64,000 bases of DNA from assembly GCA_017745175.1 (NCBI GenBank), contig JAGHZY010000024.1:1-64000 (forward strand). The letters are read 5' to 3'. The DNA comes from Sphingopyxis sp. (GTDB taxonomy: Bacteria; Pseudomonadota; Alphaproteobacteria; Sphingomonadales; Sphingomonadaceae). Positions 16,188-53,078 of the stretch are shown here, one piece after another. The position numbers and the translations under genes are program-made. Under the pieces are notes generated by a model. That model searched no databases. It was not told the DNA's origin and worked only from the letters and a program-made list of their open reading frames with translations. Position 1 is the stretch's first letter; every line of letters starts with the position of its first letter.

Positions 16188-16214
16188 CCATCTAATTAAT
16201 GATTATAATGATGG
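16188..16214. promoter_or_regulatory. AT-rich inverted repeat before the PQQ dehydrogenase
   Basis: 13-base arms (CCATCTAATTAAT / ATTATAATGATGG) around a central G, 9 of 13 positions symmetric, ending 8 bases before the GTG start. It contains a TATAAT-like core. May be an operator over the ribosome site, or simply an AT-rich promoter. Confidence 0.35.
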
Positions 16215-16221
16215 AGAGAAT

Positions 16222-18585
16222 GTGCGAGGGCTTTCGACTTTCCTTCCGGCCGCAGCTTTGGGCCTGCTGACCGCGATCGTCGGTGCCGCTTTGCTATGGT
16301 GGGGAGCGCAACTCGCGCTTCTCGGTGGCTCGCCCTATTATGGCGCGGCCGGCACGCTGCTGCTGCCCGCCGGATTGCTGCTCATCGCACGGCGGCGGCT
16401 CGGTTACTGGCTCTACCTTGGCGCGGTGCTGGGAACGATCCTCTGGGCGATGTGGGAAGTCGGCGCCGACCGCTGGGGCCTTGTGGCGCGATTGCTCGCC
16501 CCCCTGCTCCTGTTGCTGGCGCTGACATGCATCGCCCCCTTGCTGCGCCCCGCGGCCCTCGAAAAAGGACGTGTGACCACGCACCTCCTCCTTGGCTTTG
16601 CAGCGGCGCAGATATTGATGCTCGGCGCTGGCTGGACCCTGCTTCGCGACATTGCCCCCGACGCGGCAGGCTCGCCCGCACCGGTCACAGCGGCTGCGCG
16701 GGCGGATTGGCCGCATTATGGCGGAGACTGGCGCGGCGACCATTATACGCCGCTTGGACAAATCACGCCCGCCAATGCGCCGCGCCTGGAAAGGGCATGG
16801 ACCTACCGCGTCGGCGGGCTGGACGATCTGGGAAGCAACAGCCGGTTCACGGCCAGCCCGATCGCCATCGGCGAAACGCTCTATCTATGCGACCCGCGCA
16901 ACATCATCGTGGCGCTGGACGCAGCGATCGGGCGCGAGCGTTGGCGCCACGACCCCAAGGTCGATGCGTCCAAGGCATTTTCCATCGTTTGCCGCGGAGT
17001 CTCCTATCACCGTTCGGCAGTCCCGCGGGAGTGCGCCGAGCGCATATTGGAAACGACCCTCGACGCGCGGCTGATTGCCGTCGATGCCCGCACCGGAGCG
17101 CCCTGCCGTAGCTTCGGGCAAGACGGCGCGGTCGACCTTGTCGCCAACGTCCAGCCGAGGTTCGACGGCTATTATTACGTCACCTCGCCGCCAACGATCG
17201 TCGGCGATCTTGCGATATTGGGCGGCTATGTCATCGACAATCAGCGGCTCGATCCCGCTCGCAGCGTCATTCGCGCCTTTGATGTGCGCACCGGGGCATT
17301 GCGCTGGGCATGGGATGCGGGTGCAGCCGGACAGCAGCGTCCTGGCACCCTGTTTTCGGCGGGCAATCCCAACGCCTGGACGGCGTTCAGCGCCGACGCC
17401 GATCTGGGTATGGTCTATGTCCCGACCGGCAACAGTTCGCCCGATTTTTTCGGGGGACTACGAACCGCGGCGGCCGAGCGTTTCGGGACATCGATCGTGG
17501 CGCTGGACGTATCGACGGGTGCGGTGCGCTGGTCCTTCCAGACGGTCCATCACGATCTGTGGGATTACGACATGCCGGCGCAGCCGGCGCTGATCGACAT
17601 CCGGCACGGCGGTGTCATGGTGCGTGCGCTGGTCGCCGCGGGGAAAACCGGGCAGATATTCCTGCTCGATCGCCTGACCGGAAAACCGGTCAGCCGGGTC
17701 GAGGAACGGGCGGTGCCACCTTCGCCAATTCCCGAAGAACGCGCGGCGCACACCCAGCCCTATTCAATCGCCCTTCCCTCCTTTACTCCAGCGCGGATCG
17801 AGGAACGCCATCTGTGGGGGGCGACGCCGCTCGACCAATTGCTGTGCCGCATTCAGTTCCGCAAGCTGCGTTATGCGGGCGACTATACGCCGCCGTCGGT
17901 CGCCCCTTGGCTTTTTTCTCCCGGCACGTTTGGCGCCATCAACTGGGGCGGCGTTGCGATTGACCGCAGCCGTGAAATCCTGTTCGTCAACGCGTCGAAC
18001 ATGCCCTTCACAGGCTCGCTGGTGCCCCGCGCCCGCGCCGATGCGGAAGGCGCCGGGCCATTCGAGGCGGGCAGCGCGAAGCGACCGGCGGAAGGACAGC
18101 CGATGCCGCCCATGGCGATGGATGGCACGCCTTACGCCTTGCGACTGTCACCCTTCCTGTCGCCGCTCTATTTCCCCTGCATCGCTCCGCCATGGGGCGA
18201 GATCGCCGCCATTGACCTGCCGACCGGAAAGCCGTTGTGGCGCCGGCCTTTCGGCACCACCAAAGGCTTGGCGCCGCTGGGGCTCGCGCTTCCGACCGGC
18301 ATCTTCAACCTGGGCGGGGCAGTCAGCACCCGAAGCGGCGTGACCTTCATCGGCGCCGCCGCGGACGGTTATTTCCGGGCGATCGAAACCGCGACGGGAC
18401 GGGAACTTTGGCGCGACGCGCTACCCGCCGGCGGGCAAGCAACCCCGGTGAGCTATGCCACCGGCGACGGCCGGCAAATGGTCGCCATCGTCGCCGGCGG
18501 CCACGGCTCGCTTCGAACCAAACGCGGCGACTATGTCGTCGCCTACGCCTTGCCACGCGCGCAAATCAGGGAGACGGCGCCATGA
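16222..18585 (+). CDS. Membrane-bound PQQ-dependent dehydrogenase (glucose/quinate type)
   Basis: 787 residues from a GTG start; no in-frame ATG fits and GGAGAG lies just upstream. The first ~145 residues hold about five membrane helices, then a periplasmic eight-bladed quinoprotein propeller begins at WPHYGGDWRGDHYTPLGQI. Length and the helix-plus-propeller plan match membrane glucose, quinate and shikimate dehydrogenases, which pass electrons from a sugar, cyclic polyol or alcohol to ubiquinone. PQQ must come from elsewhere, as no pqq genes are here. It overlaps the aminotransferase start by 4 bases. Confidence 0.88.
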   Translation: MRGLSTFLPAAALGLLTAIVGAALLWWGAQLALLGGSPYYGAAGTLLLPAGLLLIARRRLGYWLYLGAVLGTILWAMWEVGADRWGLVARLLAPLLLLLALTCIAPLLRPAALEKGRVTTHLLLGFAAAQILMLGAGWTLLRDIAPDAAGSPAPVTAAARADWPHYGGDWRGDHYTPLGQITPANAPRLERAWTYRVGGLDDLGSNSRFTASPIAIGETLYLCDPRNIIVALDAAIGRERWRHDPKVDASKAFSIVCRGVSYHRSAVPRECAERILETTLDARLIAVDARTGAPCRSFGQDGAVDLVANVQPRFDGYYYVTSPPTIVGDLAILGGYVIDNQRLDPARSVIRAFDVRTGALRWAWDAGAAGQQRPGTLFSAGNPNAWTAFSADADLGMVYVPTGNSSPDFFGGLRTAAAERFGTSIVALDVSTGAVRWSFQTVHHDLWDYDMPAQPALIDIRHGGVMVRALVAAGKTGQIFLLDRLTGKPVSRVEERAVPPSPIPEERAAHTQPYSIALPSFTPARIEERHLWGATPLDQLLCRIQFRKLRYAGDYTPPSVAPWLFSPGTFGAINWGGVAIDRSREILFVNASNMPFTGSLVPRARADAEGAGPFEAGSAKRPAEGQPMPPMAMDGTPYALRLSPFLSPLYFPCIAPPWGEIAAIDLPTGKPLWRRPFGTTKGLAPLGLALPTGIFNLGGAVSTRSGVTFIGAAADGYFRAIETATGRELWRDALPAGGQATPVSYATGDGRQMVAIVAGGHGSLRTKRGDYVVAYALPRAQIRETAP

Positions 18586-24007: not shown

Positions 24008-24751
24008 TCAGATCGGCCCGCCGCGACCTCCCGCGACGTTGATCAGTTCACCGTTGATAAAGGCGGCGTCTTCGCTGCACAGGAACGCGGCGGTGGCGCC
24101 GATTTCTTCGGGCTTGCCGAGCCGCGCGACGAGCGAAAGCTTGGACATGAAGGCGATCTCCGGTTCGGAGCGATTGCGCTGCATCAGCGGGGTCAGGATC
24201 GGGCCGGGCGCAATGCAGTTCGCGCGGATCGTCGGCGCATGATCGATGGCCAGCGACCGGGTCAGCGCAATCACCCCGCCCTTTGCCGCGACATAGGCGG
24301 GGTTCCGGCCCATGCCGGTCACCCCGGCCCCCGATGCGATGTTGACGATCGCGCCGCCGCCCGCCGCATCGATCGCGGGGATCGCCGCGCGGCACATCAG
24401 GAAGGTCGACGTGAGATTGAGCCGGACCCAATAATCCCACTCATCCTCACCCAGATCGACCACGGTCTTGCCGGGCCGGCTGCCGCCGACGACGTTGACG
24501 AGCAGATGCAGACCGCCGAAGCGGTCTGACGCGAGGGCAACCGCCTTTGCCGCATCGGTTACACTGGTCGCGTCGGATACCAGCGTCTCGATCATGTCGT
24601 CGCCCAGACCTTGCCGTGTTTCCGCCAGTCCGGCTTCGTCGAGATCGGTCGCGATGACGCGTGCGCCGCGCTGCACGAAAAGCCGCGCGGTCGCTTGTCC
24701 GATGCCCGCCCCCGCGCCCGTGATGATGGCCACTTTGCCCGCAAGCTGCAT
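24008..24751 (-). CDS. Short-chain dehydrogenase/reductase
   Basis: 247 residues: ITGAGAGIGQATA, LVNVVGG replacing NNAG, and the catalytic YVAAK. First gene of the minus-strand operon that continues with SnoaL, SDR, TonB receptor and RidA. A shared 27-bp AT-rich inverted repeat lies upstream (24868-24894). Alcohol/ketone interconversion on a ring hydroxyl is likely; the exact substrate is unknown. Confidence 0.88.
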   Translation of the reverse strand: MQLAGKVAIITGAGAGIGQATARLFVQRGARVIATDLDEAGLAETRQGLGDDMIETLVSDATSVTDAAKAVALASDRFGGLHLLVNVVGGSRPGKTVVDLGEDEWDYWVRLNLTSTFLMCRAAIPAIDAAGGGAIVNIASGAGVTGMGRNPAYVAAKGGVIALTRSLAIDHAPTIRANCIAPGPILTPLMQRNRSEPEIAFMSKLSLVARLGKPEEIGATAAFLCSEDAAFINGELINVAGGRGGPI

Positions 24752-24867: not shown

Positions 24868-24894
24868 CTAACATTGCTATCTATTAAATATTAG
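24868..24894. promoter_or_regulatory. Shared AT-rich inverted repeat, site B
   Basis: CTAACATT, 11-base spacer GCTATCTATTA, AATATTAG. It overlaps the 3' end of the MFS gene and precedes the SDR operon by about 117 bases. 22 of its 27 positions match site C at 29525, and its half-sites are identical to those of site A at 34785. Confidence 0.6.
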
Positions 24895-26095
24895 AATCTG
24901 TTTGTGCAACGCGATTTTTCGACCAGCCCATGACCAGCGCCGCGATCGCCAGCGCCATCGCAGCGACCAGGAACGCATTGTGAATCCCGATCAGGGCGCG
25001 AAGCGGTGTCATGATCAGCGGGTTCACGAAATCGGCGATGTAAAGTACGGTGAATTCCAGCCCCACGGCGCGGGCGCGCAACGCAGCGGGAACGCGGTTG
25101 AGCAGGATTCCGCTGATATGGGGCGGGATCATTCCACCGCCGCCCCCCGCCAGGAAGGCGCCGAACGCCAGCAGCCACACATCGGTTGAAAAGCCGATGA
25201 CCGCCATCCCGCTGGCCATCATCACCGTCAGGAATATCTGCGTGCCGCGTTCACCCAGCCGTGCATAAAAGCGACCGTAAAGCCCACCGAAAATGCCGCC
25301 CGCGAGAACGCCGGTGGCGATGACCAACGAACGTTGCAGCGGGCTGTCCACGCCATCCTCGGCCAGCAGGAAGGACAATTGGATCGACGTCATGAAATAG
25401 CCGACGAACAGAAACATCGCGAGTCCGTAGATCGGCCACAGTTTGCGAAGCGGTCTGAGCGAGGGCCGTTCGCCCTGCAGTACCGTTTGCGCAACACCGC
25501 GCGGAAGCCCGGAAATCACAAGGAACAGGATGACGAAAGCAAATGCATAGAGGAGGAAAGGCGCGCGCCATCCGCCCGCCTCTGCGAGCAGGCCGGACAA
25601 TAAGAGTCCGCTGACGGCAAAGAAGCCGGCAACCGCGCTCTGATAGCCCAGCAGTTTGGCACGGGCGACCCCCTCGAACCACGCACCGACGATCACGCCG
25701 ATCGCGGTTCCGACTTGCGCGACAAAAAATCCGAGGAAGAAACGCGAGACCAACAGGGCTCCGAGGCTTTCGATGAAATAGCCGCTGATGCCCAACAGGC
25801 CATAGGCCGATAGCGCGATCATCAGGACCGGGCGCGGTCCCCATCGCTCGACCGAAAAGCCGCCAGCGATCCCGCCGAGGATCACCCCGATCGCCGGCAT
25901 CGTCAGGATCATTTGCGCAGCGAAAGCGCCGCCGGTGCCCCCGCCAAAATGATCGGCGATCGATGGCAGGACGGGGCCAAGCGCCGCGAACATCAGCGCC
26001 ATCAGCGGCGCACCGCCAACGAGCACGAGACGCGACAGGCCGCCGCACCAACCGGGCGGAATGCCAATCACCTGCGGTCTGATCCCGCGGTCCAT
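24884..26095 (-). CDS. MFS transporter
   Basis: 403 residues, about 12 hydrophobic segments, with the loop 2-3 MFS signature region GGFSVERWGPRPVLM. A strong ribosome site (AAGGAGGGG) precedes the ATG. Major facilitator carriers of this kind move organic acids or drugs across the inner membrane. Position among catabolic SDRs points to uptake of the substrate or of an acidic intermediate delivered by the TonB receptor. Confidence 0.88.
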   Translation of the reverse strand: MDRGIRPQVIGIPPGWCGGLSRLVLVGGAPLMALMFAALGPVLPSIADHFGGGTGGAFAAQMILTMPAIGVILGGIAGGFSVERWGPRPVLMIALSAYGLLGISGYFIESLGALLVSRFFLGFFVAQVGTAIGVIVGAWFEGVARAKLLGYQSAVAGFFAVSGLLLSGLLAEAGGWRAPFLLYAFAFVILFLVISGLPRGVAQTVLQGERPSLRPLRKLWPIYGLAMFLFVGYFMTSIQLSFLLAEDGVDSPLQRSLVIATGVLAGGIFGGLYGRFYARLGERGTQIFLTVMMASGMAVIGFSTDVWLLAFGAFLAGGGGGMIPPHISGILLNRVPAALRARAVGLEFTVLYIADFVNPLIMTPLRALIGIHNAFLVAAMALAIAALVMGWSKNRVAQTDSNI

Positions 26096-26205
26096 AACCC
26101 CTCCTTTATAATTATATCTTTGCTATTATGTAACCGCGCAAATCTCCAGCATACCGACAGGCCATCTTGTCAAAACGATACGTCCGCGCGCAGGGCGCCA
26201 AAGCG

Positions 26206-27123
26206 TCAGCCACGGACGGCGACTGGCCCGGACCGACAGGACAATTCATATCGCGATTGCTCGATTCCAGCGCCGGGTACCATTTCGCCGGTCCGGGCGA
26301 GAATGCGATCGAGGCCCGCCAGCACCCGCTCGGGCGCATCGTCGCCGGTGCCGACATGGAGCCCACGGGTCAGCGTAATGTGCGCGGCTTCGAAACTTCC
26401 GGCACCCGCGCACATGATCATCCCGGTCGGCGCATCGTCGCAGACGAGCGCGAGCATCCCCGGCGATACGGTCGCCGGCGCGAGCGCGGCCAGGTCCTCC
26501 TCGCTCATGATATCGGCGGTCATTCGAGTCGCGGCGGACGGCGCCAGGCAGTTCACCCGGATGCCGTGTTTCTTCCCCTCGATCGACAGCGTCTTCATGA
26601 AACCGACCAGACCAAGCTTCGCCGCGCCATATTGGGATTGCCCGAAATTGCCGTAGAGACCCGATGACGAGGTGGTCATCAATATCCGGCCGTGGCCTTG
26701 CGCGGCCATGATACCCCAGACCGCCTTGGAGCAATGCACCGAACCCATCAGATGGACATCGATCACCGCGGCGAAATCGGATAAATCCTGCTTCGCGAAG
26801 GTTCGGTCGCGCAGAACGCCGGCATTGTTGACCAAGATATCGACCCGGCCCCAGGCCGACATCGCCCGTTCGACCATCGCCTCGACCTGCGCGAAATCGG
26901 TTACGCTGGCACCGTTGGCGATCGCGTCTCCGCCAGCTTGGCGGATTTCCTTGACGACTTGCTCGGCCATCGAGACGCTCGCCCCGCTGCCGTCGCGCGC
27001 GCTTCCCAGGTCATTGACGACAACCCGCGCGCCGCGCTTTGCCAACAGAAGCGCATGATCCCGGCCAAGCCCGCCGCCCGCCCCGGTCACGATCGCGACA
27101 CGGCCGCTCAGATCGATCCGCAT
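26206..27123 (-). CDS. Short-chain dehydrogenase, MFE-2/hydroxyacyl-CoA type with C-terminal extension
   Basis: 305 residues from the ATG at 27123, chosen because GGAGGTGAT lies just before it; the frame is open 8 codons further. SDR motifs: VTGAGGGLGRDHALLLA, NNAGVLRD, and YGAAK. The GGGLGRDHA form and the ~60-residue tail are typical of the (3R)-hydroxyacyl-CoA dehydrogenase part of peroxisomal MFE-2 and its bacterial relatives. It would oxidise a beta-hydroxyacyl-CoA or 17-beta-hydroxysteroid. Divergent from the esterase gene. Confidence 0.85.
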   Translation of the reverse strand: MRIDLSGRVAIVTGAGGGLGRDHALLLAKRGARVVVNDLGSARDGSGASVSMAEQVVKEIRQAGGDAIANGASVTDFAQVEAMVERAMSAWGRVDILVNNAGVLRDRTFAKQDLSDFAAVIDVHLMGSVHCSKAVWGIMAAQGHGRILMTTSSSGLYGNFGQSQYGAAKLGLVGFMKTLSIEGKKHGIRVNCLAPSAATRMTADIMSEEDLAALAPATVSPGMLALVCDDAPTGMIMCAGAGSFEAAHITLTRGLHVGTGDDAPERVLAGLDRILARTGEMVPGAGIEQSRYELSCRSGPVAVRG

Positions 27124-27214
27124 ATCACCTCCATCTCGCATGGACATGGCCCATGCTTAGGGCACGGCCGAAGCGGGCGTCGAATGTCGAAGGCCGATCG
27201 CTGGCATCGCCATT

Positions 27215-27226
27215 GGGCAATTGCCC
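27215..27226. promoter_or_regulatory. Perfect 12-bp palindrome in a divergent promoter region
   Basis: GGGCAATTGCCC lies between the divergent SDR (start 27123) and esterase (start 27272) genes, about 46 bases from the esterase start. Likely a regulator site for one or both. Confidence 0.4.
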
Positions 27227-27271
27227 GTCCGGCATCTTCTTCCGAGATGACGCGATGAAGGGAGACGATCG

Positions 27272-28192
27272 ATGGCACCGCTCGACCCGGACATGCAGGC
27301 CCTACTCGACCGGCGCAACGCGCTGAACCTGCCGGACTTTTCGGCAGGCACGCCCGATGACGCGCGGCGCGGTTTCGACGCATCGCAGGCCGCGTTGCCG
27401 CCCCGCCGCGGGGAACAGACGGTATCGACCCACGACGAATGCATCCCCGGCCCCCACGGCGACGTGCCGATCCGGCGCTATCGGCCGGCGGGGCCGTGTC
27501 GGGGACGCATCCTTTATATGCACGGCGGCGGGTGGGTGTTTGGCACCCTCGACGGATTTGATCCGGTCTGCCGCCAGCTCGCCCACGACGGCGGCGTCGA
27601 GATCGTCAGCATCGCCTATCGGCTCGCGCCCGAGCATCCTTTTCCAAAGCCGCTCGACGATTGCTGGGCGGTGCTTCGCGCGGTCGCGGACGGGGAGCCG
27701 CTGGCGGTCATGGGCGACAGCGCAGGCGGCAATCTGGCGGCTGCGCTCGCCTTGCGCGCGCGCGCGCGCGGCGGCCCGCATATCGCGCTTCAGCTATTGC
27801 TCTACCCGGTGTTGTCGGCTGACTTCAGCCGAGCCTCCTATGCGCGGTTTGGTGGGGGCGACTATCTGGTCAGCACCGCCGACATGCGCTGGTTCTGGGA
27901 TCAGCATGTCGCCATTGCCGATCGCGACAATCCGGAAGCATCGCCGCTTGCCGCCTCCGACCTGTCGGATCTTCCCGAAGCGATCATCGTCATCGGCGGA
28001 TGCGACCCGCTCCACGACGAAGGCGCGGCCTATGCCAAGGCGTTGGAGGCGGCGGGCGTGACCGTGACCCTGCGCGACCATCAAGGGATGGCGCACGGCT
28101 TCTTCACGCTAATCGACCTGCTGCGCGCAGCCAATGCCGAAGTCGCCGAAGTCGGCGCGCTGATCGCGCGGCGCTTCGCCTCGAACGGCTAA
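27272..28192 (+). CDS. Alpha/beta hydrolase, hormone-sensitive-lipase family esterase
   Basis: 306 residues. Oxyanion-hole motif MHGGGWVFGT, nucleophile Ser in GDSAGGN, Asp in GGCDPLHDEG and His in MAHGFF complete the HSL-family active site. It would cleave short-chain esters of alcohols, possibly acetylated or lactone intermediates. Codons around 27754-27771 form a CG-alternating run coding for an ARARARG stretch. Converges with the LysR gene, 7 bases apart. Confidence 0.88.
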   Translation: MAPLDPDMQALLDRRNALNLPDFSAGTPDDARRGFDASQAALPPRRGEQTVSTHDECIPGPHGDVPIRRYRPAGPCRGRILYMHGGGWVFGTLDGFDPVCRQLAHDGGVEIVSIAYRLAPEHPFPKPLDDCWAVLRAVADGEPLAVMGDSAGGNLAAALALRARARGGPHIALQLLLYPVLSADFSRASYARFGGGDYLVSTADMRWFWDQHVAIADRDNPEASPLAASDLSDLPEAIIVIGGCDPLHDEGAAYAKALEAAGVTVTLRDHQGMAHGFFTLIDLLRAANAEVAEVGALIARRFASNG

Positions 28193-28199
28193 ACTGAGG

Positions 28200-29249
28200 T
28201 CAGCTTTCCTCGGCCAGCCGTTTCTCGACAAGCTGGATGAAGCGCGCGACCAGCGGCGACACGCTGCCCTTGGGCCACAGCATGCTGATCGGCAGCGGCA
28301 GGTCGAGGTCGGGCAGCTCGCGCAGCACAACCCCGGGGGGCGTCCGATCGGCGCGGGCCGCGGTGACGATGCCAAGCCCCATCCGCGCCGCGACCAGTTC
28401 GAAAGCGATATCGACCGCCGTCACCTCGACCGCGATATTGGGCGAAACGCCCTGCGCGTCAAAGGCCGCGATCATGCGATCGAACAGGCGCGGGGAGGTG
28501 TGGCGTGCCGGCCAGAGCAATGGCTCGTTTGCCAGGTCCGCCAGTCCAACGGCCGGCTTTGCGGCAAGCGGGTGATCCTCGGGCAGCACCAATACGAAAC
28601 AGTCGGTGCCAACGGAAAGGCGCGCGAACTGTTCGGCGTCGGTCGCTTCGTCGATCACAAAGGCGACGTCGATTTCTTCGGCGACCAGGTGGCTGCGCTG
28701 CGCGTCCGAGGTGAGCGGAAAGGCGCGCAGTTCAACCTCGGAATAGAGTGCGCGAAATTCGCGAAGCACCGCGGGCAGGACCGGACGCCGCAGCATCGCT
28801 TCGGAAAAGGCCACGCGCAGCACGCCGGTATCGCCCTCGGCGATGCGGCGCGTGTTGCGGCGCGCATCCTCGATCAGCAGCAGGATACGGCGAACGTCTG
28901 TCGCGAGCACCTGCCCCGCCTTGGTGATCGCGACGCCGCGCGCCTGTCGTTCGAACAATTCGATATTTCCGAGTTCGCGCTCGAGGTCGGCGATCCGCCG
29001 CGACAGCGCCGACTGCGCGATGTTCAGCCGCTCGGCGGCGCGGTGGAGATTCTGTTCCTCAGCAACCGCAAGAAAAAAGGGGAAATGCTTCGCGATCCGC
29101 AAGGTGCGGAGCGTCGCGACGTCGCGCGGGACACCCGGCGAAAGCGGGGAGGATGCCGATGTCGCCGTACCGGCATCGCTGCTGGCGGAAACGACCGCCG
29201 CCATATCGTCAGCCAAGTGCAACACGGACCACCGCCTTTGCGCAGACAT
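28200..29249 (-). CDS. LysR-family transcriptional regulator
   Basis: 349 residues as drawn, but the helix-turn-helix starts only near residue 49 (RIAKHFPFFLAVAEEQNLHR, then AQSALSRRIADLE). The true start is probably at or after 29204, just beyond the stop of the small upstream gene. The effector domain follows (GDTGVLRVAFSEAM). It may control the SDR/esterase/nitroreductase neighbourhood; the small gene upstream is preceded by shared repeat site C, so this regulator could itself be regulon-controlled. Confidence 0.85.
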   Translation of the reverse strand: MSAQRRWSVLHLADDMAAVVSASSDAGTATSASSPLSPGVPRDVATLRTLRIAKHFPFFLAVAEEQNLHRAAERLNIAQSALSRRIADLERELGNIELFERQARGVAITKAGQVLATDVRRILLLIEDARRNTRRIAEGDTGVLRVAFSEAMLRRPVLPAVLREFRALYSEVELRAFPLTSDAQRSHLVAEEIDVAFVIDEATDAEQFARLSVGTDCFVLVLPEDHPLAAKPAVGLADLANEPLLWPARHTSPRLFDRMIAAFDAQGVSPNIAVEVTAVDIAFELVAARMGLGIVTAARADRTPPGVVLRELPDLDLPLPISMLWPKGSVSPLVARFIQLVEKRLAEES

Positions 29250-29511
29250 CCTGCGCGCTCATCACGACTTCGACATCGGCGGTGCTGCTGCCGTCGAGGT
29301 GCCGCGCCATCACGCGGCCCGCAATCTGTTCGGGCGTGAAATTTTCGCGCGGTCCGTGGAGCGACACCAGCGACGCCGCGGCGGCGCCCGACCAGCGGCG
29401 CACCATGTCGCACAGGCGCTGGTCCATTGGTCCCTCGCCCGACACGTCGCCATCGAATTCGATCGGCTGGCCCAGACGTATGTCGGCAAAGCGAAGCGGC
29501 ATAATGTTCAT
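29209..29511 (-). CDS. Small protein, possibly a MaoC/hot-dog-like fragment
   Basis: 100 residues from the ATG at 29511, supported by GAGGTGAT 5 bases upstream. I do not recognise it with confidence. The first part (MPLRFADIRLGQPIEFDGDV) and the late strand-like region (STADVEVVMSAQDVCAKAVV) recall a hot-dog/MaoC acyl-CoA domain, but a full domain would be longer. It ends inside the LysR reading frame and starts right under a shared AT-rich operator, which argues that it is translated. Confidence 0.5.
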   Translation of the reverse strand: MNIMPLRFADIRLGQPIEFDGDVSGEGPMDQRLCDMVRRWSGAAAASLVSLHGPRENFTPEQIAGRVMARHLDGSSTADVEVVMSAQDVCAKAVVRVALG

Positions 29512-29524
29512 AATCACCTCATCC

Positions 29525-29551
29525 CTAAATTTGTTATCTTTTAAATGTTAG
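29525..29551. promoter_or_regulatory. Shared AT-rich inverted repeat, site C
   Basis: CTAAATTT, 11-base spacer GTTATCTTTTA, AATGTTAG. It matches site B at 22 of 27 bases with the same spacing. It lies 14 bases before the small gene at 29511 and 70 bases before the divergent nitroreductase. Confidence 0.6.
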
Positions 29552-29620
29552 CTGATTCGGATACGACGGTCAAACAGCGATCACCGACGCGTCGCTTCGA
29601 GAGGAAAGATCATCATCATC

Positions 29621-30211
29621 ATGGCATCCACCGCCCGGCCGCCCTCCACCGCTTCCGCCGCCGCCGACGCCCTGACGCGCCGCCGATCGCCGACTCCGGA
29701 TGCGCTGGTCGGGCCGGGCCCGACCCGCGAAGACACCGAGCGCCTGATCGAAATCGCGCTGCGCGTCCCCGATCACGGCCGGCTCAGTCCGTGGCGGCTG
29801 GTGCTGATCGCGGGCGAGGCCAAACAGCGCTGGGTCGCGAAGCTGCTCGAACTCGCCGACCGGCGCGAAGATGCCCCGAAGACGCGAGTGAGCACACGCA
29901 AACTGGCCAGCGCACCGCTGGTCGTAGTCGTCGTTTCGTCCGCGGTTCGGGGGCACAAGGTCCCTGAATGGGAGCAATGGCTGTCGGCGGGCGCGGTGTG
30001 CATGAATCTGGTGAACGGCGCGCACGCTCTGGGTTTTGGCGCGAACTGGCTGACCGGCTGGCACGCCTATGACGACCAGGCAACCGCGTTGCTCGGATTG
30101 GAAGCGGGCCAGAAGGTCGCAGGCGTCGTCCTGATCGGCAGCGTCGCCGCCGAGGCGCCCGAACGCCCGCGTGCGTGCGCCGCCGATGTGGCGCGGTGGC
30201 TCGAAGCCTGA
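29621..30211 (+). CDS. Nitroreductase-family FMN oxidoreductase (YdjA-like)
   Basis: 196 residues; GAGGAAAG precedes the ATG. The compact FMN nitroreductase pattern is visible: an Arg/Ser FMN-binding start (DALTRRRSPTPDALVG), PDHGRLSPWRLVLIAGEA, and GAVCMNLVNGAHALGFGANW in the central helix. Such enzymes reduce quinones, nitro groups or enones with NAD(P)H. In a steroid-type pathway an enone reduction is possible, but the family is too broad to say. Confidence 0.82.
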   Translation: MASTARPPSTASAAADALTRRRSPTPDALVGPGPTREDTERLIEIALRVPDHGRLSPWRLVLIAGEAKQRWVAKLLELADRREDAPKTRVSTRKLASAPLVVVVVSSAVRGHKVPEWEQWLSAGAVCMNLVNGAHALGFGANWLTGWHAYDDQATALLGLEAGQKVAGVVLIGSVAAEAPERPRACAADVARWLEA

Positions 30212-30214
30212 GCG

Positions 30215-30229
30215 TGCCGCTATGCGGCA
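30215..30229. terminator. Short stem-loop between convergent genes
   Basis: TGCCGC, loop TAT, GCGGCA, placed between the convergent nitroreductase and GntR genes. No T tract; weak evidence for termination. Confidence 0.3.
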
Positions 30230-30260
30230 GGCGCCCTCCGGCTATTTTGTGCGGTCCCGC

Positions 30261-31028
30261 TCAGGACCGCAGCATGTCGGCCTTGATCGTCAGCCCGGTG
30301 TCGAAGCCGTGCCGCCGCTCGCCGCCGCCGCTGAAATGTTCACGGATCGCGCGCTCGGCGGTCGGCGCATCGCCGTCCTCGACCGCGCGATAAATGCGTT
30401 CATGCTCGTGCAACAGCGACATGCGCACCGCGCGGTCCGAAAAGCTGCCATGCACCGACCGGTCGACCGCGAGCTCCTCGACCTGCGCGGTCCACAGCCG
30501 TTCGAGCGCGCCGACGACAAGGCTCATCGTCTCGTTGCCGCAGTTGCTGACGAGTTCGGTGTGAAAGGCGCGCGCGAGGACAATGAAGCGCGCAGGGTCG
30601 TCGATCGCGTCGGCGCAGGCGTCGATATTGGCGCGCAGCTTGGGCAGCACTGTCGTCCCGCGATCGGGGCGCAGTGCGGCCTCGGCGGCGCAGGCAGGCT
30701 CGAGCAGCCGCATGCCGTTGAGCAGGTCGAGCAACGAGACCGCGCGCGCTTGGAGCACCAGTCCCAGCATATAGGCCGCGGTCCCCGGATGCGGGACATG
30801 GACGATCGCACCGCCAACATTGCCGCGAATGACCGTGACAAGCCCCTCGGTCTCGAGAATGCGAAACGCCTCGCGGATACACGGCGGGCTAACGCCGAAT
30901 TCGTTGAGCAACTCTTCCTGCTTGGGCAGCATGTCGCCGTCGGCGAGCGCCCCCGACAGGATGCGATTGCGCAGGCTCGACGCCACGATCTCGGCAACGC
31001 GAGGCTGGCGCAGGCGCCGCTTCTTCAT
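30261..31028 (-). CDS. GntR-family regulator (FadR/FCD subfamily)
   Basis: 255 residues from the ATG at 31028. N-terminal winged helix (RVAEIVASSLRNRILSGALA, then LNEFGVSPPCIREAFRILE) and an all-helical FCD effector domain with the metal-site pattern FHTELVSNC, HEHERIYRAVEDGD and IREHFSG. FCD regulators sense organic acids. Divergent from the DapA-superfamily gene with a 115-base gap, so that gene is the probable target. Confidence 0.87.
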   Translation of the reverse strand: MKKRRLRQPRVAEIVASSLRNRILSGALADGDMLPKQEELLNEFGVSPPCIREAFRILETEGLVTVIRGNVGGAIVHVPHPGTAAYMLGLVLQARAVSLLDLLNGMRLLEPACAAEAALRPDRGTTVLPKLRANIDACADAIDDPARFIVLARAFHTELVSNCGNETMSLVVGALERLWTAQVEELAVDRSVHGSFSDRAVRMSLLHEHERIYRAVEDGDAPTAERAIREHFSGGGERRHGFDTGLTIKADMLRS

Positions 31029-31143
31029 GCTCTCGCTCACAAAACATACCCCTGTTTCTGGCCTAGGCCGGAGAACAAGCCATACGCTTCGCTTCAATCA
31101 TTGCAAGTCCAGCACGGGCCAGGAAAATAGCTATCAGGAGAGT

Positions 31144-32064
31144 ATGATGCGTGCCGACCCACCGCGTTACCAAGCCTTTACGATCAGCATCACGCCCTTC
31201 GCCGAGGACGGATCGATCGACGAGGCAAAGCTACGCCGCCATCTTTCGAAGCTCGGCGACGCCGGAATCGGGGTCTATGTCGGCGGCGGCGGCAGCGGCG
31301 AAGGCTATACGCTCTCGACAGACGAGACGAAGCGCCTTCTGGCCATCGCGGTTGAGGAGCTCAAGGGCCGCGTCCCGATCCGCGCGATGGGGGTCGAGCC
31401 GCGCACCGCACGGCAGATGATCGACTTCCTCGACATGGCAGCGGCGGCCGGGGTCGATGCGGCGCAGGTCTATTCGCTCGACGTCGGTCACGGCCATGCC
31501 CCAACCCCGCGCGAACTCGACGCCTATTTCAGCGAAATACTGTCGAACTGCGACGTGCCGTCGGTGCTCTCGACCCACCAGTCGGTCGGCTATGTCATCC
31601 CGGCGCAGGTGATTATCGAGCTGTTCGATCGCCACAGACAGCTGATCGGGCTCAATATCAGCCACCAGGACCCGAATTACCTCCGCACGCTCGCCGATGC
31701 GCTAGGCGACCGGATCGACATCTGCACCGGCGGCCCGCACCAGGCGCCACTCGCGCTCGCATTCGGCGCGCAGGGCTTTCTGTCGTCCGAGGGCAATATC
31801 GCCCCCCGATTGTGCATGGGCGTGATCGCCGCGGCGCAAGCGGGCGACAATGCGTTGTTTCTCAACCGCTGGGGCAAGCTGATGCGACTGTTCATGGCGC
31901 TTTATGGCAATGGCGGGATCCGCGTGACCAAGGCGCTGCTCGAACATTTCGGCCTCGCCGGCGGCGTCCCCCGCGCGCCGCGCTTGCCCGCCGAGGCGGA
32001 GTCGTTGGCGAAAGCGCTTGCGGTGGTCGAGGAAGTCGGCCTCGCGGACATCGAGGGCTGGTAA
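31144..32064 (+). CDS. DapA-superfamily protein lacking the Schiff-base lysine
   Basis: 306 residues; AGGAGAG precedes ATGATG at 31144. The TIM-barrel plan of the dihydrodipicolinate synthase/N-acetylneuraminate lyase family is clear: FTISITPFAEDGSID at the start, GGGGSGEGYTLSTDETKRLL where GTTGE is usual, then FGAQGFLSSEGNIAPRLCMG. But the family's IGLKDSS region reads LIGLNISHQD, putting Asn171 where the catalytic Lys belongs. The YNxP stretch reads LSTHQSV (residues 142-148), so the catalytic Tyr is gone too. It cannot use the normal aldolase mechanism. A different chemistry or a binding role is likely. Paired with a GntR/FCD regulator. Confidence 0.82.
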   Translation: MMRADPPRYQAFTISITPFAEDGSIDEAKLRRHLSKLGDAGIGVYVGGGGSGEGYTLSTDETKRLLAIAVEELKGRVPIRAMGVEPRTARQMIDFLDMAAAAGVDAAQVYSLDVGHGHAPTPRELDAYFSEILSNCDVPSVLSTHQSVGYVIPAQVIIELFDRHRQLIGLNISHQDPNYLRTLADALGDRIDICTGGPHQAPLALAFGAQGFLSSEGNIAPRLCMGVIAAAQAGDNALFLNRWGKLMRLFMALYGNGGIRVTKALLEHFGLAGGVPRAPRLPAEAESLAKALAVVEEVGLADIEGW

Positions 32065-32092
32065 AAAAAGGCGGCGGGATATCCCCGCCGCC
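32063..32092 (-). terminator. Strong intrinsic terminator for the amidohydrolase-Coq4 operon
   Basis: Read on the minus strand: GGCGGCGGG paired with CCCGCCGCC (9 bp, 5-base loop) followed by seven T. It lies 25 bases after the Coq4-like stop and just after the DapA-like stop on the other strand, so it closes the minus-strand unit. Confidence 0.8.
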
Positions 32093-32117
32093 CAAGCAGC
32101 CCCTTCGGCTGGCTCTA

Positions 32118-32987
32118 TCATTCGGCGGCAACCGCCTCCGGCCCGTTGGGCAGCGGGTCGTAGCGGTCGACCTGCTCGCTCCAGTACGCCGACTCGCGCG
32201 ACGTATCGATCGTGTGGGCACCGCGCACCCCGAACTTGCGACGCGCCTCTTCCAGCGGCAGGTCTAGCCAGTCCTCGTAGCGCGGCAGGAACAGCGCGTC
32301 GGACTGTTCGCCGACCTTCATCGCATAATGCGCCAGTTCGAACATGCGCAGCGTCAGCTCGGGATAGTGAAGCGGTCCGCGCATGAACATCGGGATGGTG
32401 AGCAGCGTGTTCTGGACGTTGAGCAGGCCCGCCAGCTCGGGCGTAAAGTGACGGAAAAGATTTCCGTACTTCAGGAAAGCCGGCATGATTTCGCCGATCC
32501 CGTCGAACCCGCCACCGCTCAATATATGCATGATGTCGTGGATCTGGACACCGCGCAGGAAAAAATATTCGAAACCCGACCTCGGTTCGAAGGTCGGGAT
32601 GATATCGACCTCCATCCCCGCACCGATAAGCCATTGATACCAGATCCCGCCGACCGATCCTTCGGGGCACGACTTCATATCCTCGCGCGTCAGTCGGGCG
32701 AGCCAGCGTTCGTCGAGCCATTTGTCGAATTCCGGCCAGCTGCGGCGCGCCTCGTTGAACAGCTCTTCGATCCGCTCATGATCCTGCACCTCGCGCACCG
32801 CGTCGATCAGCGACGGGATGCCATAGGTCACCGGATAGTCGCGGCCGTTGCGCTTCAGGCACTGCGTCGTGACCCATTCGCGAATCCGGAAATCGTTCAT
32901 ATATTTGGACGAGCTGATGAGCACGCTGCTCGTCGTTTCGACCTTTTGCCGTCCGCGCTGCAGATACGGCAGATCGTCCTCGTTCAT
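32118..32987 (-). CDS. Coq4-family protein
   Basis: 289 residues from the ATG at 32987 (AAGGAGAG upstream). The Coq4 metal motif HDxxH-x11-E is exact: His150, Asp151, His154 and Glu166 in HDIMHILSGGGFDGIGE. Coq4 proteins act on ring C1 of ubiquinone precursors (oxidative decarboxylation) and organise the Q-biosynthesis complex. Here no other coq gene is present; instead it is the second gene after an amidohydrolase, between a shared operator and a strong terminator. A catabolic role on a cyclic intermediate is therefore more likely than ubiquinone synthesis. Confidence 0.8.
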   Translation of the reverse strand: MNEDDLPYLQRGRQKVETTSSVLISSSKYMNDFRIREWVTTQCLKRNGRDYPVTYGIPSLIDAVREVQDHERIEELFNEARRSWPEFDKWLDERWLARLTREDMKSCPEGSVGGIWYQWLIGAGMEVDIIPTFEPRSGFEYFFLRGVQIHDIMHILSGGGFDGIGEIMPAFLKYGNLFRHFTPELAGLLNVQNTLLTIPMFMRGPLHYPELTLRMFELAHYAMKVGEQSDALFLPRYEDWLDLPLEEARRKFGVRGAHTIDTSRESAYWSEQVDRYDPLPNGPEAVAAE

Positions 32988-33009
32988 CCCGTCTCTCCTT
33001 TTATATCTA

Positions 33010-34746
33010 TCAGGCGGCTGCAGCTTCGACCTTGCGGACGACGGGGCCGATGAACTGGCCAGGCAGTTCGCCGGTGAACGCCCCATTCTCAAAGGTCGGC
33101 ACGCCGTTGACCAGCGTCAGCCGCATCGGCGCGGCGTCGCGCGAGAAGCGCCAGGTGAAGCCGCCCTCGCCATCGGGGACGTCGAACGCGCGGCGGAGCG
33201 GGCGGGCTTCGATCTCGTCGAGGTTGAACACCGCGATATCGGCGCGGTAGCCGGGCTTCAGCACGCCGCGATCGTCGAAGTTAAAATGCTCGGCCTGCTT
33301 GCCGGTCTGGACATGGATCGCCTCTTCGAGCGTCAGTTCCTTGTTCTTCAGATAATGGGTGAGCAACAGGATATTCTCGCCGCCGCCGCACAGCATCTGC
33401 CCGTGCGCGCCAGCGTCGGAGATGTTCGCGACGGTCTGGCTGGTCTTCATCAGTTCGACCGTCTTGTCGAAATGCATCGGGTGCGGCACGCGGTTGACGA
33501 TCGACTGGACGCCGTTCGCAATCACCCAGTCGGCGAGCGCGTCGGACGGATGCTGACCCGTCCGTTCGGCAAGCTCCTTGAGGTTGAGTCCGAGCGGTCC
33601 GGCCCCGGTTTCGGAATCGAGCAGCAGCATCATGTGCGGATTGGCGACGAGCGACTGCTTGAAAGCCTTGTTGTCCCAGCTATCGCGGGCGCGGGCACGG
33701 AAATCCTCGTCTTTGAGCAACGCGATCTTTTCTTCCTCGGTCGGCGCCTGCACGACCTCGTGCCAGACATATTCATTGGCCTGCGCGAAGGACGAGCTTG
33801 AGAAGAAGTTAAGCGCGGTCGTCGGCGGCACATGCGCAAAGCTCGGCCAGAAATCGAGGCCCTCGGCCTTTTGCTTCGCGCTGATTTCCCACATCCGGTC
33901 GCGGATTGAATCCTGGAAGTGAAGCAGCCCCCCGGCCCCCGCCATCTGGACGCGCACGCCGCGGTCGCGGCAAAGATTGCCGAGCCGCTCCATCTGCTCG
34001 GGCGCTTTCAATTTGAAGAAGGTGTCGAGGATGACCTGCAACTGGCTGCCCGGATTGCGCGCGAGCACGCCGATCAGCTCGGCCCATTCGGCATCGTCGG
34101 CGACCAGGCTCGGGACCGGCCGGTCCTTGCTGTCATGGTCCATCAGGTTCGACGACATGCCGAGCGCGCCGGCGTCGATCGCGTCTTGCAGCATGTCGCA
34201 CATCTTCTGGATTTCGTCCGCGGTGGCGACGCGGTCCCACGCCGCCATGCCCATCACGGCGAGGCGCATCGCGATGTGGCCGGCATAGCCGGCTATATTG
34301 GTCGATGTCTTGCAATTCGCCTCGACCGAGGCGCGATATTCGGGCCAGCTGTTCCAGTCCCACGGCAGCATTTCGACGAAGGGTTTTTCGGCTACCTCCT
34401 CGAAGAAGGAGAAGATTTTGACCATCTCCATCCGCACGTCGGGGTCCTTGTGGACCGGCGCGGCGGTGAAGCCGCAATTGCCGATCACGACGGTGCTGAC
34501 GCCGTACCCGGGTAGCGGATCAAGGCTCGGCTGCCACCACATCACGGCGTCCATATGCGTGTGCGGCTCGATGAAGCCCGGCGAGACGATGCAACCGGCA
34601 GCATTGATGACGCGCTCGCCATCGGCGGGCGACAGGCCGGGTGCGATCTCCGCGATCAGCCCGTCCTTCACGCGGACGTCGGCGGCATAGGAAGGCGCGC
34701 CGGAGCCATCGACGACGGTCCCTCCCTGGATAAGAATGTCGGTCAT
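33010..34746 (-). CDS. Amidohydrolase, N-acyl-D-amino-acid deacylase (D-aminoacylase) family
   Basis: 578 residues; AAAGGAGAG precedes the ATG. Composite-domain amidohydrolase: small beta domain, then metal-binding HTHMD in SPGFIEPHTHMD, the family's VVIGNCGFTAAP with the metal-bridging Cys, and the late catalytic Asp in ISDAGAHGQML. Known members deacylate N-acyl-D-amino acids, but many sphingomonad and actinobacterial homologues near steroid genes have unknown substrates and may open cyclic amides, lactones or diketones. First gene of a two-gene unit with the Coq4-like gene. Confidence 0.85.
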   Translation of the reverse strand: MTDILIQGGTVVDGSGAPSYAADVRVKDGLIAEIAPGLSPADGERVINAAGCIVSPGFIEPHTHMDAVMWWQPSLDPLPGYGVSTVVIGNCGFTAAPVHKDPDVRMEMVKIFSFFEEVAEKPFVEMLPWDWNSWPEYRASVEANCKTSTNIAGYAGHIAMRLAVMGMAAWDRVATADEIQKMCDMLQDAIDAGALGMSSNLMDHDSKDRPVPSLVADDAEWAELIGVLARNPGSQLQVILDTFFKLKAPEQMERLGNLCRDRGVRVQMAGAGGLLHFQDSIRDRMWEISAKQKAEGLDFWPSFAHVPPTTALNFFSSSSFAQANEYVWHEVVQAPTEEEKIALLKDEDFRARARDSWDNKAFKQSLVANPHMMLLLDSETGAGPLGLNLKELAERTGQHPSDALADWVIANGVQSIVNRVPHPMHFDKTVELMKTSQTVANISDAGAHGQMLCGGGENILLLTHYLKNKELTLEEAIHVQTGKQAEHFNFDDRGVLKPGYRADIAVFNLDEIEARPLRRAFDVPDGEGGFTWRFSRDAAPMRLTLVNGVPTFENGAFTGELPGQFIGPVVRKVEAAAA

Positions 34747-34784
34747 CGCTCTCTCCTTTTACGATTCTCTGATAACGCCATATC

Positions 34785-34810
34785 ATATCTAACATTGCAA
34801 TATTAGATAT
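34785..34810. promoter_or_regulatory. Shared AT-rich palindrome, site A
   Basis: 26-bp palindrome with one mismatched pair: ATATCTAACATT, centre GC, AATATTAGATAT. It starts 39 bases before the amidohydrolase ATG and overlaps the last codons of the RibB-type gene. Its half-sites CTAACATT and AATATTAG are identical to those of site B, with 9 fewer bases between them. Confidence 0.65.
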
Positions 34811-48251: not shown

Positions 48252-49421
48252 TTACCTCGGCATGCCGAGCATCCGCTCGGCGATGATGTTGCGCTGGATC
48301 TCGTTCGCACCGGCGTAGATCGGCCCCGCAAGCGAGAAGACATAGCCGTCGAGCCAGTCGGCGACGGGTGCAGCCGCCCCCGGCAGGCCGGCCGTGAGTT
48401 CGGCTTCGGCGCCGAGCAGCGAAAGCGCGGTCTTGTGGAGTCCGAGGTCGAGTTCGGACCAGAATATCTTGTTCGTACTGGTCTCGGGTCCGATCGCACC
48501 GCCCGCCATCAACCGGCTCGCGGTCGCGTAGATCGACAGCGCATAGGCATCGGCGTCCATCCACGCCTGCATCACTTCGGCTCCGAGCAGTGGATCGGAG
48601 CCGCGCTCTTTCCAAAGCTCGACAAGCTTCGCAGCGGCGACCTGAAAGCGCGCGGGACTGCGCAGCATCAGCCCGCGCTCGAACCCCGCGGTCGACATGC
48701 ACACCGCCCAGCCCTGCCCTTCGTCGCCGAGCCGGTTGGCGGCGGGGATGCGGACATCGTCGAGGAAGAGTTCGGCAAAGACGGGCTTGCCGTCGAGGCG
48801 CTGGATCGGCTTCACCGTCACCCCCGGCGCATTCAGCGGAAACAGGATCAGCGACAGCCCCTTGTGGCGCTCGCTGCCGGGCTCGCGGAACAGCCCGAAC
48901 GCCCAGTCGGCATGGACCGCGCGCGACGACCAGATCTTGTGGCCCGAGAGGATATAGTCGTCGCCCCCCCCTGCATTTTTGACGCGCGTCGCTGTGGCGC
49001 GCACGCCGGCGAGGTCGCTGCCCGCGCCGGGTTCAGACCATGCCTGCGCCCAGATCTGGTCCCCCGCCGCCATCGCCGGCAGGAAACGCGCCTTCTGTTC
49101 GGGCGTGCCATATTCGATCAGGGTCGGCCCGAGCAGGAAGATGCCATTCTGGTTCAACCGGCCCGGCGCCCCGGCGCGATAATATTCCTCCTCGAAGATC
49201 AGCCAGCGGATCAGGTCGAGCCCGCGCCCGCCATATTCGGTCGGCCAGGTGACCATACCCCAGCCGCCCTTATGGAGCGTGCGTTCCCATTCGCGATGCG
49301 CCTCAAACCCCTCGCGCGTCGAATCGAAATCGGGCAACGGCGCGGGCGGAACATGCGCCGCCATCCACTGACGCACCTCGGCGCGGAACGCCTGTTCCTG
49401 GGGGGTATAGCGCAGGTCCAT
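48252..49421 (-). CDS. Acyl-CoA dehydrogenase, large subunit
   Basis: 389 residues: MDLRYTPQEQAFRAEVRQWM start, YGGRGLDLIRWLIFEEEYY, AQAWSEPGAGSDLAGVRATA in the FAD/substrate region, and LAGPIYAGANEIQRNIIAER at the C-terminus, the classic FAD-contact segment. It would oxidise a bulky CoA ester to the enoyl-CoA, passing electrons to ETF. Likely partner of the shorter enzyme just downstream. Its first base overlaps the crotonase stop. Confidence 0.9.
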   Translation of the reverse strand: MDLRYTPQEQAFRAEVRQWMAAHVPPAPLPDFDSTREGFEAHREWERTLHKGGWGMVTWPTEYGGRGLDLIRWLIFEEEYYRAGAPGRLNQNGIFLLGPTLIEYGTPEQKARFLPAMAAGDQIWAQAWSEPGAGSDLAGVRATATRVKNAGGGDDYILSGHKIWSSRAVHADWAFGLFREPGSERHKGLSLILFPLNAPGVTVKPIQRLDGKPVFAELFLDDVRIPAANRLGDEGQGWAVCMSTAGFERGLMLRSPARFQVAAAKLVELWKERGSDPLLGAEVMQAWMDADAYALSIYATASRLMAGGAIGPETSTNKIFWSELDLGLHKTALSLLGAEAELTAGLPGAAAPVADWLDGYVFSLAGPIYAGANEIQRNIIAERMLGMPR

Positions 49422-50170
49422 CAGAATTTCGCCGCCGTGCCCGTCGCGACGAACTCGTCGCGCGAGCGCTGGCTGTCTTCGTGCATGTACATTTCGAGCG
49501 TGAAGCCCTGTTCGAAGCGGTAGCCATGGTCGACGTCGCGCGGCTCGATGCCGTTCAGCGCTTCCTTGGCGAGCACGAGCGCGCGGCGGCTTTTCGACGC
49601 GATCACCGCGGCAAAGGCGCGCGCTTCGTCGGCGAGCCTGACCGCCGGATACACGGCCTCGACAGCACCCAGCCGATAGGCTTCCGCAGCGGAGATCCGC
49701 CCGCCCGTGAAAAAGGCCGCGCGCACTTTCTGCAGGGGGAACATGCGCTGCAAATGGCTTGCGCCGCCCATCGCGCCGCGGTCGACCTCGGGCAGCGAGA
49801 AATAGGCATTGTCGGCGGCGATCACGACGTCGGATGCGCCGCAGATGCCGATTCCGCCGCCGATCACGAAATTGTGGACCGCGGTCACCACGGGCACTTC
49901 ACAGCCGCGAATGGCGCGGAAGGTCAGGTAATTGCCGCGGTTGAGTTCGACGATGCGTTCGGGATGCGCCTGCATCTCCTTGATGTCGACCCCGCCGCAA
50001 AAGCCGCGTCCCTCGGCGCGGATGAGCACGCAGCGCACCTCGGGATCGCGACCGAGGCGCTCGACATGCCCGGGCAGTTCGTTCCAGCCCTCGCTATCGA
50101 GCGCGTTGACCGGGGGGTGATCGAGTATGATCTCTCCGATCCGGTCGGAGATGTTCGTGCGTATCGGCAT
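49421..50170 (-). CDS. echA20: EchA20-like crotonase (steroid D-ring hydrolase family)
   Basis: 249 residues from the ATG at 50170. The sequence carries features I recognise from mycobacterial EchA20: PPVNALDSEGWNEL, RAEGRGFCGGVDIKEMQ, VIGGGIGICGASDVVIAA, LPEVDRGAMGGASHLQR and AKEALNGIEP ... YRFEQGFTLEMYM. Gly replaces the first catalytic Glu and LPEV keeps the second. EchA20 hydrolyses the five-membered D ring of the hydrindane CoA intermediate in steroid degradation, feeding IpdAB. The ipdC-, ipdA- and ipdB-like genes just upstream strengthen the call. Confidence 0.82.
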   Translation of the reverse strand: MPIRTNISDRIGEIILDHPPVNALDSEGWNELPGHVERLGRDPEVRCVLIRAEGRGFCGGVDIKEMQAHPERIVELNRGNYLTFRAIRGCEVPVVTAVHNFVIGGGIGICGASDVVIAADNAYFSLPEVDRGAMGGASHLQRMFPLQKVRAAFFTGGRISAAEAYRLGAVEAVYPAVRLADEARAFAAVIASKSRRALVLAKEALNGIEPRDVDHGYRFEQGFTLEMYMHEDSQRSRDEFVATGTAAKF

Positions 50171-52151: not shown

Positions 52152-52183
52152 GGCGCAATCCTCTCCGTCTTTCGACTATCAAT

Positions 52184-52193
52184 CATTATAATG
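52184..52193. promoter_or_regulatory. AT-rich palindrome upstream of the 52.15-kb operon
   Basis: CATTATAATG, perfect 10-bp palindrome containing TATAAT on both strands, 33 bases before the crotonase ATG; TTGACG lies 11 bases further out on the minus strand, too close for a standard promoter pair. Promoter or operator for the minus-strand operon. Confidence 0.35.
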
Positions 52194-52248
52194 TTAAGAG
52201 CCGTCAACAGCGGGGGCGATAGCTTCGCGGCACGCCAGCGGTGCTTTA

Positions 52249-53067: not shown

Positions 53068-53078
53068 GCCGTCCTCCC

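Follow-up and report, generated by a model that had tools for sequence, protein, structure and literature searches.

A conserved 18-bp palindromic operator shared by the catabolic operons of a Sphingopyxis gene cluster, and a local FCD-type GntR protein as its probable repressor

A 64,000-nucleotide stretch of DNA from Sphingopyxis sp. (GenBank assembly GCA_017745175.1, contig JAGHZY010000024.1, positions 1 to 64,000; hereafter the window) carries several catabolic operons that appear to share a single operator. Three AT-rich sites picked out by an earlier sequence-only reading, at 24868-24894, 29525-29551 and 34785-34810, are indeed present, and comparison with relatives identifies them as copies of one 18-bp palindromic element, CTAWCATT-N2-AATGWTAG. 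The operator is conserved in related genomes, lies at promoters and, in alphaproteobacteria, co-occurs with homologues of a GntR regulator with an FCD domain encoded in the window (Table 1). We consider it likely that this GntR protein is the repressor that reads the operator. The proposal of a shared operator and a multi-operon catabolic regulon thus stands; the regulon is larger than the three operons first suggested, with about six.

The even 18-bp palindrome is the conserved unit at all three sites. The sites at 24868-24894 and 29525-29551 both fit CTAANNTT-N11-AATRTTAG and agree at 22 of 27 bases, and the N11 pairing, which has two exact occurrences in the 4.25-Mb genome (both in the window), had been taken for the unit itself. 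It was rejected on two grounds: footprinting in relatives, where orthologous promoters keep the 18-mer with its 2-bp spacer, and an unseeded motif search, which also returned the 18-mer. The near-perfect short palindrome (26 bp, 24 of 26 positions symmetric) is genuine, but it lies at 34.8 kb rather than at 24.9 kb, the letters of the two sites having been swapped. Nor does it arise by removal of 9 bases from a longer site; that apparent puzzle came about because the first reading had taken the outermost of three arrayed half-sites as a partner. Since the orthologues of all three sites align as 18-mers, they share one design, with 8-bp halves and a 2-bp spacer. With up to three mismatches, CTAAYATTGCAATRTTAG is found at two places in the genome, one of them 34789-34806.

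Extra half-sites accompany part of the operators. A match to the right half occurs at +9 in 34% of 38 sites; the extra half starts ∼ 10 nt from the site centre. The +4 offset (32%) falls on the right half of the operator itself; no other right-side offset exceeds 8%, and on the left side -9 accounts for 13% (all raw frequencies). For part of the GntR family a large study (PMC4494728) describes additional, weaker half-sites at a distance of 7-12 nt from the site centre.

Relatives were fetched via the amidohydrolase behind the 34.8-kb site, and scanning genome contigs yielded 12 loci: six from named strains (Novosphingobium sp. MD-1, Sphingomonas populi, S. colocasiae, S. jatrophae, Croceicoccus estronivorus and Sphingobium sp. 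CECT 9361) and six from metagenome-assembled genomes, three of which are Caulobacterales. Gene content and order are broadly kept in the sphingomonad loci; in Novosphingobium sp. EMRT-2 the cluster is on a plasmid. In MD-1 and EMRT-2 the amidohydrolase is preceded by the perfect palindrome CTAACATTGCAATGTTAG, even where the non-coding DNA nearby has in large part diverged. This site is more degenerate in other relatives (for example CTAATCTTGCAATCTTAT), and the Croceicoccus amidohydrolase promoter has no scoring site. The segment 32170-38693 is inverted in the window relative to MD-1; operator A is retained nonetheless. At the 29.5-kb site relatives keep an 18-mer such as CTATCCTATAAAAGATAG, with the outer CTAA half absent or weak in most of those aligned. 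The 24.9-kb site has counterparts in loci L105 (CTATCTCTTATATGATAG, at 12768) and L107 (CTAAGTCTTATAGGTTAG, at 16122), and operator D has an orthologous site, placed 14-19 bp ahead of the gene, in each of the six relatives compared, of which two are nearly identical. Plasmids of Novosphingobium and Sphingobium carry 16 more distant amidohydrolases (57-59% identity); the three of these that were fetched gave no good match to the operator patterns, and a search of plasmids for the SDR1 gene (SDR, short-chain dehydrogenase/reductase) gave no match. Strong operators at L035:17704-17721 and L038:8689-8706 may mark further members of the regulon; both palindromes were part of the training set.

Statistical support was sought at the level of the promoter, start codons being taken as the starts of protein matches. 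A first matrix was built from nine sites of the operator C type, and each promoter was compared with 100 base shuffles (dinucleotide frequencies not kept). Significant matches (p <= 0.02) were found for amidohydrolase-2 in 7/7 promoters, SDR1 in 3/3, the amidohydrolase in 11/14 and the enoyl-CoA hydratase in 3/6. The nitroreductase/small-gene region gave 12/12, a largely circular result because the matrix was built on seven of these 12 and one more has the sequence of a training site. Sites upstream of the luciferase-like monooxygenase (LLM), the FMN (flavin mononucleotide) reductase and the major facilitator superfamily (MFS) gene MFS55 are not general (4/14, 4/7 and 1/7, respectively), and in the window only MFS55 has one. 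Among 43 control promoters, hand-picked from internal genes, three reached p <= 0.02, and the top score among the five at p <= 0.05 was 12.2.

An unseeded palindromic search of 38 promoters in five groups recovered CTAWCATT-NN-AATGWTAG at 18.2 bits, whereas 12 Markov shuffles gave 8.2-8.7 bits and the 43 internal-gene controls a different, GC-rich motif at 11.4 bits. The five groups were chosen for the sites already seen in them (the GntR-DHDPS [dihydrodipicolinate synthase], FMN reductase, MFS55 and LLM groups were excluded), four near-duplicate rows (L027 twice, L101 twice) were removed beforehand, and 400 seeds were used for the real run versus 200 for the shuffles. With the final matrix none of the 43 controls scored 11 or more (highest 5.3), and no match of 12 turned up in 78 kb of unrelated GC-rich loci. 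The window has five matches of at least 20; 200 column-permuted matrices give 0.14 on average and never more than 3. At a threshold of 13 there are 14 register matches in nine places (permuted matrices: mean 2.6, maximum 12); eight of the nine places are between or at the ends of identified genes, and the ninth, at 59598 (score 14.2), is upstream of a TonB receptor.

Scans of whole genomes agree with a local regulon. Allowing up to two mismatches, CTAWCNTTNNAANGWTAG matches the Sphingopyxis genome at five places, all in the window and all between or at the ends of genes, and not scattered inside them. For 5/5 matches to fall in 1.5% of the genome by chance has a probability of ∼ 8e-10, although the pattern was partly drawn from the window's own sites. 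A reversed control pattern also gives five matches. The total count is therefore at background and the clustering alone is above it. In seven other genomes, at the same stringency, matches in the cluster stand amid background matches elsewhere, except in G464, where 3/3 are on the cluster's contig. An earlier palindrome matrix, with up to three mismatches, found 11 places in the Sphingopyxis genome, five of them in the window, against nine for its reversed control. We also scanned 148 relatives for the palindrome of operator A with up to two mismatches; 18 genomes (17 besides the source genome) have matches, most of them probably due to chance. The window match is the only exact one, and one other has a single mismatch. 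Overall, comparative evidence supports the operator and the regulon well, and the claim that the sites exceed chance is borne out by conservation across species and by clustering in the window.

The position of the sites suggests how they act. The best matches end 14-26 bp before the start of amidohydrolase-2 and 15-45 bp before that of the amidohydrolase; at the SDR1 promoters they are 109-126 bp out. By eye, four loci (those of the window, MD-1, EMRT-2 and S. populi) have a TATRAT-like -10 element after the palindrome of the amidohydrolase, TTGAC precedes the enoyl-CoA hydratase site in 5/5 loci shown (window included), and the small-gene promoter has TTTGAC in 5/8 aligned loci. Because the operators lie at core promoters, they are probably repressor sites. 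We propose that a dimer of the FCD-type GntR protein binds CTAWCATT-N2-AATGWTAG. In most operons the operator is in or beside the core promoter or directly before the start codon, where bound GntR would block RNA polymerase. A pathway intermediate might then bind the FCD domain and release the repressor, which would switch on the ring-degradation genes, the TonB receptor, the transporters and the LysR gene together. A second dimer may join at the extra half-sites, which have a 9-bp pitch.

Loci outside the main cluster speak for GntR, one of the candidates named by the sequence-only reading. Eight such loci encode a GntR homologue of at least 45% identity, six alphaproteobacterial (at least 48%) and two actinobacterial (45-47%). 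All six alphaproteobacterial loci have a site of at least 16.7 in a neighbouring promoter, and four of the sites exceed 20. In L075 (25.6, CTATCATAGCTATGATAG) and L076 (17.2) the site precedes an amidohydrolase-2/amidase operon, in L085 (21.4) it is in a GntR/TonB divergon and in L128 (16.7) it precedes an MFS gene; L129 has one before a TonB receptor (24.5) and another before an MFS gene (19.9), and L130 has one before a TonB receptor (25.4). None of the six matches the window's LysR within the stretch fetched. Genome G794, from another family of the class, combines a 59% identical GntR and a site of 24.5 with a best LysR match of 33%. Three weaker FCD relatives (33-39%) have no site in the stretches tested. 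The GntR protein is rare: besides the source genome, it was found in 1/395 genomes of an order sample at E <= 1e-40 and in 2/384 of a class sample at 1e-38, and 398 genomes of the phylum added no homologue.

Several observations weigh against this assignment. The region between the GntR and DHDPS genes has a significant site in 3/13 loci, all Caulobacterales and none in the window lineage, and its best score in the window is 4.8, which leaves GntR without an operator of its own there. Neither of the two actinobacterial homologue loci (L098, L099) has a site that reaches 12. Some AT-rich stretches where no GntR was found also score 15-18 (L086, 15.7; L110, 17.7), which lowers the weight of the two weakest loci among the six (16.7 and 17.2). 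The operator lacks the canonical GT...AC palindrome; PMC4494728 gives NyGTM-N0-1-KACNy as the consensus of many FadR-subfamily members, with exceptions including BioR and NanR. Homologues of both GntR and the LysR-type regulator at 28.2 kb are found in all 13 main genomes (the source genome included), and those genomes alone therefore cannot separate the two. Finally, operator sites accompany some LysR genes: the Caulobacterales LysR-LLM regions score 18.3 (L078), 21.7 (L083) and 10.4 (L053), and a LysR paralogue locus, L086, has the site of 15.7 mentioned above. Separately, the GntR-DHDPS region (31028-31144) shows TTGCAA, a -35-like element, in 9/10 aligned loci, together with a TATTGC-like -10, and outside Caulobacterales it has no full operator.

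These sites, and the position of operator C in front of the small gene and LysR, would fit a LysR regulator that binds the operator, controls the regulon and regulates itself through operator C. We regard this as unlikely. LysR proteins typically recognize a T-N11-A dyad with an odd centre, situated upstream of the -35 region. The motif here is an even 18-bp dyad, and its matches end 14-45 bp before the amidohydrolase and amidohydrolase-2 starts; at the latter they are too near for a typical LysR activator. Moreover, between LysR and LLM no site is present in L080 (best 3.0) or L081 (best -3.7). Genomes G715 and G794 contain three LysR-like loci (L131-L133), none with a site of 12 or more, and G794 has the operators and GntR with no LysR match better than the 33% given above. 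LysR, also on the original list of candidates, is thus disfavoured. The sequence-only reading also suggested a binding assay with a TetR protein; no TetR gene was found among the window open reading frames given to Pfam, which were part of the total.

There is a slim chance that the regulator is encoded elsewhere in the genome, since a distant factor could read the operators of a local cluster and the open reading frames of the window were classified in part. The confinement of the genome's matches to the window is as expected for a local pathway regulator, and the association with GntR homologues reaches another family of the class. The palindromes might instead act in RNA, as hairpins or terminators. 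At 34.8 kb the palindrome, which overlaps the stop codon of ribAB, could fold; elsewhere the unit is imperfect, AT-rich, beside promoter-like elements and recurrent upstream of start codons, which makes this explanation very improbable. That the sites are chance matches in AT-rich intergenic DNA, as the equal count of the reversed pattern (five versus five) might imply, is hardly credible given that all five true matches are in the window, that the sites are conserved across species, that none of the 43 controls reached 11 with the final matrix, and that footprinting contradicts it. A local GntR repressor remains the reading we prefer.

Table 1. Operator sites and genes of the window. Scores are those of the final matrix.
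Feature	Positions	Strand	Score	Remarks
Operator A, 26-bp palindrome	34785-34810		24.9	core 18-mer 34789-34806, CTAACATTGCAATATTAG; upstream of amidohydrolase (start 34746)
Operator B, core	24877-24894		23.3	CTATCTATTAAATATTAG; upstream of SDR/SnoaL/SDR/TonB operon (start 24751)
Extra half-site adjoining operator B	24868-24875			CTAACATT; 9-bp pitch; similar extra half in L107
Operator C, core	29534-29551		29.1	TTATCTTTTAAATGTTAG; between nitroreductase gene (+) and small gene/LysR (-)
Extra half-site adjoining operator C	29525-29532			CTAAATTT; mostly not kept in relatives
Operator D, two overlapping 18-mers	55199-55224		16.6, 25.4	CTATCTTATAAACATTTATATGATAG; upstream of amidohydrolase-2/CoA-transferase operon (start 55180)
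Operator F	52180-52197		23.3	CAATCATTATAATGTTAA; upstream of enoyl-CoA hydratase (start 52151)
Two overlapping 18-mers before pyrroloquinoline quinone (PQQ) dehydrogenase	16188-16214		14.4, 17.9	directly before the gene (16222); like the double site L105 3893-3919
Weak site, MFS transporter	56690-56707		13.7	gene start 56654; absent upstream of the same gene in 6/6 relatives
Weak site, MFS transporter	26105-26131		13.3	gene start 26095; stronger counterpart at L105 14005 (19.4)
FCD-type GntR regulator, proposed repressor	30261-31097	-		likely start near 31028; Pfam GntR and FCD
LysR-type regulator, probable target of operator C	28200-29249	-		Pfam
Small 102-aa gene directly before LysR	29209-29517	-		homologues 50-65% identical in 7/13 loci and in L082
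Nitroreductase-family gene, divergent from small gene across operator C	29621-30211	+		domain search
DHDPS-family gene, divergent from GntR	31144-32064	+		domain search and comparison of relatives
Amidohydrolase, first gene behind operator A	33010-34746	-		domain search
Coq4-family gene behind amidohydrolase	32118-33092	-		start approximate
SDR gene, first gene behind operator B	24008-24751	-		domain search
Amidohydrolase-2 gene, first gene behind operator D	54035-55180	-		domain search
CoA-transferase genes	52273-53954 (53079-53954, 52273-53184)	-		starts approximate
Enoyl-CoA hydratase behind operator F	51249-52151	-		domain search
PQQ-type dehydrogenase behind 16.2-kb site	16222-18585	+		domain search

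The genes of the cluster point to steroid-type ring catabolism. The best solved relatives of the first CoA-transferase subunit are chains of 6con, 6co6 and 6coj (E 6e-72 to 2e-70), which we take to be IpdAB of steroid C/D-ring degradation. A second enoyl-CoA hydratase, at 49421-50491, scores above the PRK07938 cut-off, and the cluster encodes a Rieske protein with the C-terminal domain of KshA (KshA_C). From these three proteins we infer a steroid-type pathway; an IpdAB-like CoA transferase with neighbouring beta-oxidation genes is what C/D-ring (methylhexahydroindanedione propionate, HIP) degradation would call for, if the presumed identity of IpdAB is right. The 102-aa protein has no match in Pfam or NCBIfam. 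Between 34803 and 37986 a ribAB-type gene and an FMN reductase adjoin the luciferase-like monooxygenase, which suggests a local supply of FMN for that enzyme.

If these assignments hold, a sphingomonad ring-degradation pathway would have a defined operator and a named candidate repressor, and the regulon would tie genes of unclear role (the amidohydrolases, the Coq4-like gene and the 102-aa proteins) to one pathway. GntR and its operator would also offer a candidate example of FadR-family DNA recognition beyond the usual code, and promoter and repressor together might serve as a biosensor.

Pfam matches to PF00392 (4.8e-16) and PF07729 (3.7e-19) place the GntR protein in the FadR (FCD) subfamily. 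It resembles PdhR and other members in its GntR and FCD domains, in the palindromic form of its putative operator and perhaps in the extra half-sites, which are reported for part of the family. It differs from them in an operator without a GT-N-AC core, built of CTAWC...GWTAG halves, and in the helix-turn-helix motif, in which QEE and SPP stand in place of the ERE and SRP of PdhR, with two PdhR arginines replaced. Three FCD controls also lack the first arginine and keep the second. The recognition helix SPP[CAS]xREA is kept in the GntR proteins of the 13 main genomes. The replacements fit a different recognition code, but are suggestive only.

BioR serves another pathway, that of biotin, and its operator has another sequence and length; KstR2, whose regulon in mycobacteria comprises the lower-ring genes, belongs to another protein family and has another operator. 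On the side of likeness, BioR is a regulator of the FadR subfamily whose AT-rich operator (TTATMKATAA) departs from the common consensus (PMC4494728), and KstR2, a TetR protein, controls cholesterol utilization genes (PMC3068626). For bile-salt clusters PMC12882949 names regulators of AraC, TetR and Lrp type; in a word search the same paper showed no mention of GntR. A literature search with little coverage of subscription journals returned no published GntR regulator of such a ring-degradation pathway. The nearest studied sphingomonad case that we found is EdcR of Caenibius tardaugens (PMC8700777). Like the regulator proposed here it is a repressor that acts on a palindrome over the -10 box in a sphingomonad steroid cluster; it differs in being a TetR protein, in its operator, TnnCnnTACnAnTnGTAnnGnnA, and in governing the upper estrogen pathway. 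We speculate, as a tentative view that could well prove wrong, that the window's GntR represents an undescribed FadR-type branch with an inside-out operator (AC...GT, AT-rich, 2-bp spacer), in which a higher-order complex assembles from a third half-site set at 9-bp pitch, and that it serves sphingomonads and Caulobacterales as master switch of steroid-type ring degradation in place of the TetR-type KstR2 of actinobacteria.

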